IMG/VR virus record: IMGVR_UViG_3300046501_000435
Coordinates: 1 to 43,821 of that record
Reading direction: 5' to 3' (one strand)
Source: a virus
DNA length: 43,821 nucleotides
This document shows, one piece after another, positions 3,852-7,893 of the stretch. Within the stretch, counting starts at the first letter, position 1, and the number at the start of each line of letters is the position of its first letter. Below the pieces are notes generated by a model. The model was given only the letters and a program-made list of their open reading frames with translations. It was not told the origin of the DNA and searched no databases. Position numbers and translations under genes: made by a program.

Positions 3852-3867
3852 ATTGGGGTGGAATTTC

Positions 3868-4179
3868 ATGGCGAAGAAGCAGGCGGTACCGGCAGCACGG
3901 CAGGAAATGAGCGGCATGGCACGCCTGGGGTTGCGCGTCTCATCGATGATCAATCACCCGATCGCTCAGGAGCGCCGCGAGGTGACAATTCACCGCCTAG
4001 ATACAGACGGGGATCGAGAATGGGAGGAGGTGCTGAGCGTGATCGCTGATACGGACGAACTGGAACTGACCCTCAATGACGACGGCAGCGTGACGGTGAG
4101 GTGGGAACAGCAGGAAGTTGAGGTGGCGGGGAAGGGTGAGCCGGAGCTTGAGCTAGAGGATGAGTCGGCGACTTTCTGA
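3868..4179 (+). CDS. DUF1654 family protein
   Basis: A 103-aa protein starting MAKKQAVPAARQEMSGMARLG. The core (RLGLRVSSMINHPIAQ, then VTIHRLDTDGDREWEEVL and ELELTLNDDGSVTVRW) is what I recall as DUF1654, a small family of unknown function seen in Pseudomonas chromosomes and prophages. The ATG at 3868 follows GGGGTGG; an upstream in-frame TTG at 3853 is less likely. The C-terminus is strongly acidic. The promoter carries a LexA box, so DNA-damage induction is predicted. It stands alone and diverges from the leftward early operon. Confidence 0.8.
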   Translation: MAKKQAVPAARQEMSGMARLGLRVSSMINHPIAQERREVTIHRLDTDGDREWEEVLSVIADTDELELTLNDDGSVTVRWEQQEVEVAGKGEPELELEDESATF

Positions 4180-4182
4180 AGT

Positions 4183-4208
4183 ACAAAAAGCCCGCTCAGT
4201 GGCGGGCT
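4183..4208 (-). terminator. Terminator of the repressor operon (distal of two)
   Basis: AGCCCGC/GCGGGCT stem (4189-4195 with 4202-4208), followed on the minus strand by TTTTTG. It ends leftward transcription from the operon 6277-4271 just before it would collide with the convergent DUF1654 gene. Confidence 0.7.
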
Positions 4209-4234: not shown

Positions 4235-4260
4235 ACAAGAAGCCCGGCGCTGGGCCGGGT
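4235..4260 (-). terminator. Terminator of the repressor operon (proximal of two)
   Basis: Stem CCCGGC/GCCGGG on the minus strand followed by TTCTTG. Ten bases downstream of the stop at 4271. Two terminators in tandem insulate the lysogenic operon. Confidence 0.65.
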
Positions 4261-4270
4261 GATTCTGGCA

Positions 4271-4861
4271 CTAGCTGAAAAGGAATTTTGCCGCAGCGCC
4301 TATGACGATGCCTGCGATAGTTGCGCCAACGGCAATCCCGCCCATGTACCTCGCAAGAGTCCTTCGAATTTCATGAACATCGGTATTCACGGTCTTCAAG
4401 TCACCCTTAATGCTTGAAAGATCGGACTCAATCCGCCCTAGGCGATAGTCCGAGGCCTTATCCCGCTCCGCTTGGGCTGCTAGAAATCCAGAAAACTTTT
4501 CATCCAAGGCTTTATCGCGAGCAGCTTGCTCCGCTCGGAACGATTCCTGGCGCAAATCCATCTCCCGACGAAGCTGATCGTCGCGAAGCTGGAGCTCATG
4601 GCGGTAGTCAGTAGATGAGGTCATGAAATCAGTATCGCTCTGTTTGACCGAACTGTCATCATTTGGCAGATTTTCAGGATACAGTTTAGGGGGCAATCTG
4701 TCGGTGGTGAAGATTCGATTGTTTCGTTTCCGTTGTGAAAGCTGAGCCACTTGCGATGCCGCAATACTTGTCCAGTCTGGCGTGCTCGGCCCCTTGCCAA
4801 GGCCTTCAGAACCCTTAAATATATCCGGATTGATAGGGTCTAGATCGACGAACGTCAGCAA
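4271..4861 (-). CDS. Coiled-coil protein with C-terminal membrane anchor
   Basis: A 196-aa protein that starts at a TTG codon (4861), justified by AGGAG six bases upstream and by direct abutment on the TAA of the preceding gene. Residues 1-80 are polar and probably disordered. Residues about 85-165 are a long, highly charged coiled coil with repeats such as RDKALDEK and AERDKASDYRL. Residues about 172-196 (YMGGIAVGATIAGIVIGAAA) are a transmembrane helix ending at the C-terminus, so the protein is probably tail-anchored with the coil in the cytoplasm. It is the last gene of the group running from the repressor. Similar coil-plus-anchor proteins occur in Pseudomonas prophages without assigned function. 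Confidence 0.75.
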   Translation of the reverse strand: MLTFVDLDPINPDIFKGSEGLGKGPSTPDWTSIAASQVAQLSQRKRNNRIFTTDRLPPKLYPENLPNDDSSVKQSDTDFMTSSTDYRHELQLRDDQLRREMDLRQESFRAEQAARDKALDEKFSGFLAAQAERDKASDYRLGRIESDLSSIKGDLKTVNTDVHEIRRTLARYMGGIAVGATIAGIVIGAAAKFLFS

Positions 4862-5149
4862 TTAGAACTCCTCGATCGCGCCAGGTATCGCATCATTAAG
4901 CAATGAGTGCTGCCTCACAAACTTACACTTGGTACAAATCATCACCAGTACTGGAAGACCTGTCATGTACATATCGCCGGTTCCGGTTCCCCATGGTAGG
5001 GCATTTCCACCGATAGATTGAGCATTTGGTATTTCCCAGGCATCCGTTTCGCATACTGGGCAGGTCACAGGGATTTCGTTGGTGCCGAAGAACTCCAAGA
5101 CCTTCTCGATATTAATTCTTCGCCGTTTAACTTCAGTTGCTTCGCTCAT
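4862..5149 (-). CDS. Small zinc-ribbon protein in the repressor operon
   Basis: A 95-aa protein from the ATG at 5149 (AAGGAAAGATTG upstream). Cys30-Pro-Val-Cys33 and Cys72-Thr-Lys-Cys75 form two CxxC knuckles 38 residues apart, the pattern of a zinc ribbon. The intervening segment is Gly-rich with a hydrophobic strand (LPVLVMIC). The N-terminus is basic (KRRRINIEKVLEFF). It is directly followed by the membrane coiled-coil gene, with translation of the two probably coupled. No named family is recognised. Nucleic-acid sensing or protein-protein contact are both compatible. Confidence 0.75.
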   Translation of the reverse strand: MSEATEVKRRRINIEKVLEFFGTNEIPVTCPVCETDAWEIPNAQSIGGNALPWGTGTGDMYMTGLPVLVMICTKCKFVRQHSLLNDAIPGAIEEF

Positions 5150-5191
5150 CAATCTTTCCTTAGAAGTTTTTACAGCGTTCAGTTGAATGAA

Positions 5192-5419
5192 TTAACTGGC
5201 TTTGCCTCGCACAATCCTTCCCGCCTTAACCTCATCTGCATACCCCGCCAGCCTGTCTAAGCACTCATGCAGCTTTCCGATCTTCTCCATGGCCGCTAGG
5301 AACTCAGGTTCGGCTTTAGTCTTGGCCTCACGGAAGATATCCTGTGCAGCATCGTCGAACTGTGCCGCAGCCTCTTTCAGGTCACGGCGCAGTTGCTGGT
5401 TGGGCTTGGTGAGGGGCAT
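5192..5419 (-). CDS. Small helical protein directly downstream of the repressor
   Basis: A 75-aa protein (MPLTKPNQQLRRDLKEAAAQ...) predicted to be all helical and amphipathic, with no motif I recognise. Its ATG lies three bases after the repressor stop, so it is cotranscribed and probably translationally coupled with it. That places its expression in the lysogen. Confidence 0.65.
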   Translation of the reverse strand: MPLTKPNQQLRRDLKEAAAQFDDAAQDIFREAKTKAEPEFLAAMEKIGKLHECLDRLAGYADEVKAGRIVRGKAS

Positions 5420-5422
5420 GGG

Positions 5423-6277
5423 TTACACCAGGTTGGCGTTCCAGACGAGCAGCACGCGCGCCTGGATGTACGTTTCATCAAGAAAGATATCCTCGGCCTT
5501 GTGCTTCCGATTGTCCGACAGCATCTTGAATTTGTCCTTGCCCTTCATTTGCAGGCGCTTGATGTACTGAAAGCCCTGGTACGAGAAGAAGTAGATCCCG
5601 TCGCCAACAAATTCTTTGATGCTGACATCGACCAGCAGCGGATCGCCATGCTTGATCGTTGGAGTCATAGACTGCCCCCAGCCGGTGATCATCTTAAGAT
5701 GGAAGTGCTCTTTGAACTCGACGCCCATGGCTCGGAGCTGGGAAGGGCTAACGCGCACGTCCTGGAGCATCTCAGGAAAGTCATGAGCGATTTCGCCGCC
5801 GCCCAAGGCTCCGCGCACGTCATAGTGAGCAATCCATACTTCGTCGCCGACCTTTCCAGGCCTGTAGGCGTCATTCACTAGAATGCCGCCAGCGGCTTCA
5901 ACCTCGTCGCCCTCTGCGACTGCCAAAAGCTTTCGCCGAAGTTCGTCAGGCAGCCCTTTACCAGCAAGCATTTCGCGGACTTTGTCGGCCGAAGTGGACG
6001 TACGCTCAGGGGATGCTGGGCTGACTGATAAGTCGGGACCATCACCAGATGCATGCTGCAGCCATTCTATTTTTACGCCGAGAAAGGATGCGATTGCCTG
6101 CATCTTTGCCGGGCCCGGGATGGATTCACCATTCAGCCATTTGCTCGCAGCCTTCGGCGTAACTTTGGCTATTTCTGCAAGGCGTGCACCCGCACCCCAT
6201 TGATCAATGCCCTTGGCGGCTACTGACTTCTTGAGGCGAGAGGCAAAAGCAGCGCGAATATCTTCTATCTGAACCAT
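5423..6277 (-). CDS. CI-type repressor with HTH and S24 peptidase fold
   Basis: From the ATG at 6277 the protein has 284 aa. Residues about 11-75 contain a helix-turn-helix (RLAEIAKVTPKAASKWLNGE) and residues about 140-284 a S24/LexA-type domain with Ser203 in GWGQSMTPTIKHGDPLLVD and Lys240 in FQYIKRLQ, 37 residues apart as in LexA. The usual Ala-Gly self-cleavage site is not obvious in the expected place (GALGGG near 156-161, EAAGG near 127-131). The chosen ATG lies in the centre of an operator and has no Shine-Dalgarno, which suggests a leaderless message; an in-frame ATG at 6322 would add 15 residues. It should maintain lysogeny by binding both operator clusters. Confidence 0.85.
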   Translation of the reverse strand: MVQIEDIRAAFASRLKKSVAAKGIDQWGAGARLAEIAKVTPKAASKWLNGESIPGPAKMQAIASFLGVKIEWLQHASGDGPDLSVSPASPERTSTSADKVREMLAGKGLPDELRRKLLAVAEGDEVEAAGGILVNDAYRPGKVGDEVWIAHYDVRGALGGGEIAHDFPEMLQDVRVSPSQLRAMGVEFKEHFHLKMITGWGQSMTPTIKHGDPLLVDVSIKEFVGDGIYFFSYQGFQYIKRLQMKGKDKFKMLSDNRKHKAEDIFLDETYIQARVLLVWNANLV

Positions 6278-6341
6278 AGGTTCAATATCGCACGCCCTTG
6301 CATGTACTTTCAGTTCCGACATAATATGTACTGCAAGTTCA
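6270..6341. promoter_or_regulatory. Right operator array (three sites) with divergent promoters
   Basis: Three 15-bp sites: 6270-6284 (TGAACCATAGGTTCA), 6303-6317 (TGTACTTTCAGTTCC) and 6327-6341 (TGTACTGCAAGTTCA), centres 33 and 24 bases apart. A rightward promoter TTGCAT (6298-6303) / TAATAT (6322-6327) overlaps the second and third. A weaker leftward promoter ending in GATATT/TATTGA just before the repressor ATG overlaps the first. This is the arrangement of a lambda-type right operator. Confidence 0.7.
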
Positions 6342-7149: not shown

Positions 7150-7893
7150 ATGAACATCAATACCGCTCCAGGCAATACCCGACCTGTCGCGACACTTTTC
7201 GAGCAACAGCAAAGCGTGTCGCGACACACCATGTCTTCCCGCGAGATCGCCGAACTGACCGGAAGCACGCACGACAATGTGCTGAAAACCATCCGGGCCT
7301 ACATTTCCAGGGGTGTCGTTTCTTCAAACGACACCCCTTACATCCACCCGCAGAACGGCCAAGTGTATCGCGAGTTTCTCCTTTCCCAGCGCGACACCCT
7401 GGTGGTGGTCTCCGGTTACAGCGTCGAACTGCGCGCCCGGATCATTGATCGCTGGCAGGAGCTGGAGGCGAGGGCGGATCAGTTCCAGATTCCGGCGACC
7501 TACGCTGAGGCACTGCAGGCCGCCGCCGACCAGGCCAAGGAGAACCAATCGCTTCGCCTCGTGATCCTTGACCAGGCGCCGAAGATCGCTGCTATCAAGC
7601 GACTGGCGTCTGCCTGCGGCTCGATCTGCATCAGCGATGCCGCCAAACAACTTCAGGTCCCGCCCTCGAGGCTTTTCCAGTGGATGGAGAAGAATCGGTG
7701 GATTTTCCACCGCGGCGGGTCCAAGCGTTGGACTGCCTACCAGCCTCGAATCACATCCGGCTATCTGGTCCACAAGGTCACCGCGCTGAAAAGCGACCCG
7801 GAGACCGGTGGGGACCGTGCCGCCTTCCAGCCTCTCGTAACCCCGAAAGGCCTGGCCTACCTGGCCGAAAAGAATATCGGAGCCTCGCTGTGA
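7150..7893 (+). CDS. Rha-family / KilAC-domain phage antirepressor-type protein
   Basis: A 247-aa two-domain regulator. The N-terminal half (TMSSREIAELTGSTHDNVLK, then NGQVYREFLLSQRDTLVVVSGY and LRARIIDRWQELE) is typical of the Rha regulatory family. The C-terminal part (ISDAAKQLQVPPSRLFQWME, then NRWIFHRGG and VTPKGLAYLAE) is the KilAC domain found in phage antirepressors. Such proteins modulate the repressor or block superinfecting phage, but the target is not predictable here. It heads the replication operon and overlaps the next gene by four bases (GTGA). Confidence 0.85.
   Translation: MNINTAPGNTRPVATLFEQQQSVSRHTMSSREIAELTGSTHDNVLKTIRAYISRGVVSSNDTPYIHPQNGQVYREFLLSQRDTLVVVSGYSVELRARIIDRWQELEARADQFQIPATYAEALQAAADQAKENQSLRLVILDQAPKIAAIKRLASACGSICISDAAKQLQVPPSRLFQWMEKNRWIFHRGGSKRWTAYQPRITSGYLVHKVTALKSDPETGGDRAAFQPLVTPKGLAYLAEKNIGASL

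Follow-up and report, generated by a model that had tools for sequence, protein, structure and literature searches.

Behind the CI-type repressor in the window (the whole 43,821-nucleotide stretch analysed, IMG/VR record IMGVR_UViG_3300046501_000435), a zinc-ribbon protein and a coiled-coil protein with a C-terminal transmembrane segment (coil-TM protein) form one recurrent unit, and the coil-TM gene carries a conserved promoter directly in front of an internal ATG at position 4624. This internal ATG with its promoter is the main feature of the locus and was overlooked in the first-pass annotation, as was the fact that the adjacent 75-aa gene belongs to a separate, much commoner family. The comparative data support well the architecture of a membrane module whose N-terminal heads appear to be swapped. 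We tentatively propose that this is a Rex-like exclusion module of lysogeny, in which sensor heads are interchangeable and a headless form acts as modulator, a reading to which we give a little less than an even chance.

Locus layout and recurrence of the pair

The repressor, an S24 peptidase with an HTH domain, is encoded by gene 1 of a leftward lysogenic unit, and three leftward open reading frames (ORFs) follow it in the place and on the strand given by the first-pass annotation (Table 1). Its finer points also held: the 75-aa gene starts three bases past the repressor stop (5423), the second product contains a four-cysteine zinc ribbon (CPVC...CTKC), and the last gene abuts its neighbour, with a TTG start immediately 3' of the zinc-ribbon TAA and GAGGAG just in front. 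The zinc ribbon would have 96 aa if started at TTG 5152, and the ATG at 5149 is its most plausible start. The coiled coil with a C-terminal membrane anchor was recovered as a helix predicted to cover residues 83 to 195, with a single hydrophobic span at the C-terminus. Two closing terminators had been claimed as well; both hairpins are present, but terminator-like hairpins are no more frequent in the window (three) than expected from shuffles (2.5 ± 2.3). Convergent with the leftward unit lies a DUF1654 gene (phrog_2707, 3853-4179), and phage SC_8_H2H8_2017 (L009) has the same DUF1654 arrangement with a BRCT-domain protein in the place of the pair. At 7150-7893, the window encodes an antirepressor-type protein with Phage_pRha and KilAC (ANT) domains.

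Table 1 Features of the lysogenic unit in the window.
Feature	Position	Strand	Basis
S24/HTH CI-type repressor	5423..6322	-	Pfam Peptidase_S24 4.7e-14, HTH_3 1.5e-8; phrog_4 repressor 6.6e-40
75-aa helical protein, phrog_6388	5192..5419	-	phrog_6388 1.2e-22
Zinc-ribbon partner, 95 aa, phrog_4293	4862..5149	-	ATG start preceded by AAGGA
Long form, 196 aa: variable head, coil and C-terminal TM	4271..4861	-	TTG start
Variable N-terminal head of long form	4625..4861	-	Class common to L006, L007, L058, L084
-35 element ATGACA, internal promoter	4654..4659	-	Site in window and conservation across loci
-10 element GATACT, internal promoter	4631..4636	-	6 nt 5' of internal ATG; site and conservation
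Short (headless) form, 117 aa, predicted leaderless start	4271..4624	-	Invariant Met and conserved downstream sequence
C-terminal TM segment, long-form residues 169-196	4274..4357	-	Hydropathy
Terminator-like hairpin 1	4243..4259	-	Sequence scan
Terminator-like hairpin 2, then TTTT	4189..4208	-	Sequence scan

The grouping of all three genes into one module, as previously suggested, did not survive comparison. The 75-aa phrog_6388 gene is a widespread repressor-linked gene found in 263 of 399 Pseudomonas genomes, and the genes 3' of it vary widely among these genomes. Because such different and unrelated cargos follow it, we rejected it as a module member and consider that it marks a cargo slot. 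Elsewhere in Pseudomonas prophages, the cargo in this slot included M78-peptidase proteins and matches to the PADLOC models PDC-M11A (5e-134), PDC-S13 (7e-92) and PDC-M24A, the PDC models being candidates only. These M78-peptidase/HTH and PDC proteins lie at L219 1856-3028, L223 1827-2882, L224 1761-2294, L231 559-1422 and L241 17-1159. The slot has the look of a site for defence cargo. In two Pseudomonas genomes, a 313-aa protein stands behind phrog_6388 (L218 2130-3068 and L227 472-1410); a RexA-like identity was considered for it and dropped, with no match in the PDB and, for the L218 protein, none in Pfam or PADLOC.

Searches with the coil-TM protein and with profiles recovered 45 viral loci in IMG/VR and 14 genome loci, the latter all from Pseudomonas except one record labelled Pantoea. 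Among 294 genomes drawn from the order, the coil-TM profile was found in only two. Among the type-A loci collected (n = 56, a sample biased by retrieval via conserved coil peptides), 48 had an S24-like repressor upstream in the same orientation, and all 56 coil-TM proteins had a single hydrophobic span near the C-terminus, as called by hydropathy only. The loci are partly related by descent, and tests were run on nonredundant sets without an explicit tree; the N-terminal start was assumed in some loci. In most loci the ORF before the coil-TM gene encoded a zinc ribbon, and in a minority the place was taken by small proteins of several unrelated kinds, mostly helical. Many repressor types were combined with the module. 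As an independent sample, the zinc-ribbon profile alone was searched in the 399 Pseudomonas genomes and matched in 24; about eleven of these loci had the type-A coil-TM protein downstream, and most of the others had a second, short coil-TM type (PPG..MEARV..LE) lacking the internal promoter. The association is more than chance, since many Pseudomonas phages and prophages carry the pair independently of one another. The earlier view of a lysogenic cargo in the rexAB position, composed of a soluble metal-binding protein and a membrane partner, is thus well supported: the pair is recurrent, repressor-linked and modular.

In the second pair type, a phrog_4293-like zinc ribbon precedes a short PPG..(M/L/V)EARV..LE coil protein with a C-terminal TM; this type was seen at L082, L083, L086, L087, L089-L093, L096 and L097, several of them directly behind an S24 repressor. 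Among P. aeruginosa phages, D14O carries the zinc-ribbon/coil-TM pair behind cI and D14P carries it between the tail genes I and J. D14O (L248, BK061588.1, 553-2968) is a D3-like phage with an annotated putative anti-CRISPR gene beside cro. In D14P (L008, BK061589.1, 3914-5006), where the pair sits at the tail-tip genes, the zinc-ribbon gene has no annotation, and it overlaps the end of gene I on one side and the first part of the coil-TM gene on the other. A full-text literature search, with most subscription journals outside its reach, found no publication on the pair.

The zinc-ribbon partners diverge to about 20% identity, and C30, C33, W38, C72 and C75 are invariant in the 27 members compared. 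All 27 match phrog_4293 (E <= 0.01), a family to which PHROGs assigns neither function nor partner. The predicted model (pLDDT 81) is zinc-ribbon-like, and a fold search returned the ribbons of TFIIS, RPB9 and NrdR at a weak best Z of 3.5; no specific fold relative emerged beyond generic ribbons. A sequence search of solved structures likewise gave only generic ribbon matches (best 0.003, RpoM), and against PADLOC the family gave only a few chance-level Cas matches.

A conserved promoter inside the coil-TM gene

Conservation of the coil-TM protein sets in at an invariant methionine in the middle of the ORF, and in 32 diverse loci the arrangement TGACA-N18-ATACT-N6-ATG stands directly 5' of the corresponding ATG. 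With the A of ATG as +1, TGACA occupies -34 to -30 and ATACT -11 to -7, which is the canonical sigma-70 placement, the spacer being 17 bp long. In this nonredundant set (below 40% identity across the 36 residues that precede the Met), both elements carried 0.9-2.0 bits, compared with an upstream background of 0.10 ± 0.09. A promoter score of at least 8 out of 10 was reached by 34 of 40 focal ATGs and by three unrelated ones among 19,787 other nonredundant ATGs. These three scored exactly 8; the other ATGs scoring 9 or 10, and all the rest at 8, were the same gene in further loci. Two loci retrieved by an IMG/VR scan for the promoter DNA pattern (L098 and L099, among the matches listed) were known members. 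Six loci found independently via the zinc ribbon had ATGACA or GTGACA and GATACT or CATACT at the exact place. In the window alone, the two promoter sites found do not exceed chance (1.6 ± 1.2 in shuffles), and the support is comparative. The internal ATG of phage D14O is preceded by TATACT at -12 to -7 and a poor -35.

Conservation of the amino acids could in principle produce such an element, an explanation that we rejected because a wobble position stays constant under changing residues. At -7, the third codon base was T in all 32 loci, against a background frequency of 24% at wobble positions, although the codon variously specified Thr, Asn, Ala, Asp, Pro or Ser; the Asp codon at -11 was always GAC. 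The constancy of the wobble T across six amino acids indicates that the DNA itself is conserved.

A classical Shine-Dalgarno sequence before the internal ATG is absent, the conserved element being promoter-like instead. As no ribosome-binding sequence lies between the -10 element and this ATG, the mRNA is predicted to be leaderless. The element spacing places +1 on the ATG itself, and the internal promoter should therefore direct synthesis of a leaderless mRNA that encodes a headless form of 117 aa. Both transcription from the internal promoter and translation of the short form are what we infer from this conservation. A precedent is VirF21 of Shigella, a shorter protein that modulates the long form and is made from a leaderless mRNA started at a promoter within the gene (PMC5101355). 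The likeness to VirF30/VirF21 is that one gene would give two proteins via an internal leaderless promoter (predicted here; PMC5101355), with -35 and -10 elements that put +1 at the internal start codon and with conservation at the DNA level. VirF, however, is a transcription factor encoded by a single gene, whereas the present case concerns a membrane protein of a recombining phage family.

Variable heads and their partners

Upstream of the internal ATG, the head region was open in all loci and usually began at a start codon inside the partner gene, overlapping the partner stop by 8 nt; its pN/pS was 0.07-0.67, below 1 in all eight classes tested. The open frame, the start codon of its own and the pN/pS below 1 argue that the head is coding and is translated as the N-terminal part of the long form. 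The model of the long form is of low confidence (pLDDT 63), and the coil-TM family had no sequence match among solved structures.

Similarity between partners was correlated with similarity between heads (Mantel r 0.28, 0 of 2000 permutations), a co-variation that could in part be mere linkage. The heads showed no such relation to the coil-TM (short) part (r 0.04, p 0.13), nor did the partners (r -0.04). The contrast is clear between the window and L002, whose coil-TM parts have a similarity of 0.94 while the partners (0.04) and heads (0.08) are both unrelated. Since the head tracks the partner and not the coil-TM part, the two probably move between loci as a single block, and the internal promoter would be the crossover point.

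Possible function and competing readings

Family assignment gave no direct answer, as Pfam, PHROGs, NCBIfam and PADLOC yielded no function for the pair. That the genes resemble no known defence family, as the first-pass annotation had stated, agrees with the PADLOC-DB profiles, which had no match for the window pair apart from a coil-type one to PbeC (0.012). Our preferred Rex-like reading rests on position, that is, the lysogenic unit and a slot shared with RexAB and PADLOC candidates, and on anatomy. In P. putida prophage P1, RexAB is encoded downstream of a CI-like repressor and is a proven abortive defence, in which RexB is a growth-suppressing membrane effector that damages the membrane when triggered; five RexAB-like systems are known (PMC12894663). 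Like lambda RexAB and RexABpp, the pair lies 3' of a CI-type repressor in one unit and orientation, combines a cytosolic with an inner-membrane protein, and uses the same slot in Pseudomonas prophages. It differs in having a 95-aa zinc ribbon where RexA is a DNA-clamp protein, one predicted TM where RexB has four TM helices, and swappable heads with an internal leaderless-type promoter. No RexA or RexB match was found for the pair in Pfam, NCBIfam or PADLOC. On the Rex-like reading, the pair would work like RexAB without being a RexAB member; a single TM is less obviously a channel than the four of RexB, which speaks against it.

The joining of a diverse recognition part to a constant membrane part suggests a sensor and effector, and by analogy the pair may protect the host cell from other phages. 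We infer the physical interactions and every exclusion step of the following scheme. The repressor operon would make a small cytosolic partner (here the zinc ribbon), and translational coupling would give a membrane protein whose variable head matches it; partner and head would together recognise a superinfecting phage. The constant part, a coiled coil with its single TM helix, would assemble in the inner membrane and, when triggered, disturb the membrane and stop growth or phage development. A headless copy, made from the leaderless mRNA of the internal promoter, would join the same coils and set the threshold, keeping the effector silent until enough heads are engaged. Recombination at the internal promoter would exchange heads between phages.

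The main rival is superinfection exclusion at DNA entry, in which the membrane protein would block injection by related phages without membrane damage or growth arrest, and the choice of the incoming phage protein to be bound would lie with the head or partner. Entry exclusion typically involves inner-membrane proteins with a single TM; the great diversity of heads on a constant anchor also fits, as does the D14P pair between tail genes I and J, a site for lysogenic cargo. Most of the protein is nevertheless predicted to be cytosolic, zinc ribbons usually bind nucleic acid or protein in the cytosol, and profile searches matched no exclusion family; we regard this reading as unlikely. Ranked after it, and quite improbable, is a toxin-antitoxin-like unit for addiction or growth control, with a toxic long form and partner and a constitutive short form as antidote via mixed oligomers. 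The mqsRA locus has an internal promoter that makes one component independently (PMC6918082), and some coils weakly resemble phage 'hemolysin' phrog_1193. Against this, no toxin-antitoxin family was matched, and the partner class ranges from zinc ribbons to unrelated helical proteins, unlike in an ordinary toxin-antitoxin pair.

A role in regulating the lysogeny switch or host transcription is less probable again. Here the zinc ribbon would act on RNA polymerase or the repressor and be sequestered by the membrane protein, which would agree with the weak TFIIS/RPB9/NrdR resemblance (best Z 3.5) and with the modulation of the lambda switch by RexA (PMC11077077), but not with the replacement of the zinc ribbon by partners of unrelated fold at the same place or with the many repressor types combined with the module. 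We consider it very improbable that the gene is a lysis or holin-like accessory acquired next to the repressor. A coil with a C-terminal TM and weak holin/anti-holin and hemolysin profile matches point in this direction, among them a weak match of the coils to the XhlA-type 'hemolysin' phrog_1193 in 4 of 20 members. These small coil-TM phage proteins share an N-terminal coil and a C-terminal membrane helix with the pair, which differs in its N-terminal head and in lying outside the lysis cassette, in a leftward lysogenic unit behind the repressor, with a zinc ribbon and its own predicted constitutive-type promoter.

Beyond this locus, it is possible, although doubtful, that the pair represents a Pseudomonas-wide exclusion class with a constant membrane effector, recombining heads with cognate partners, and a headless form that sets the threshold. 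If the exclusion reading is true, this would be a modular family whose head types run to dozens, unmatched in the defence libraries searched, and it would add to the repressor-linked exclusion cassettes, of which so far there are a handful of cases. Near-identical membrane parts with unrelated heads would provide a natural swap experiment, and the conserved gene-internal promoter of leaderless type would be an unusual regulatory device.
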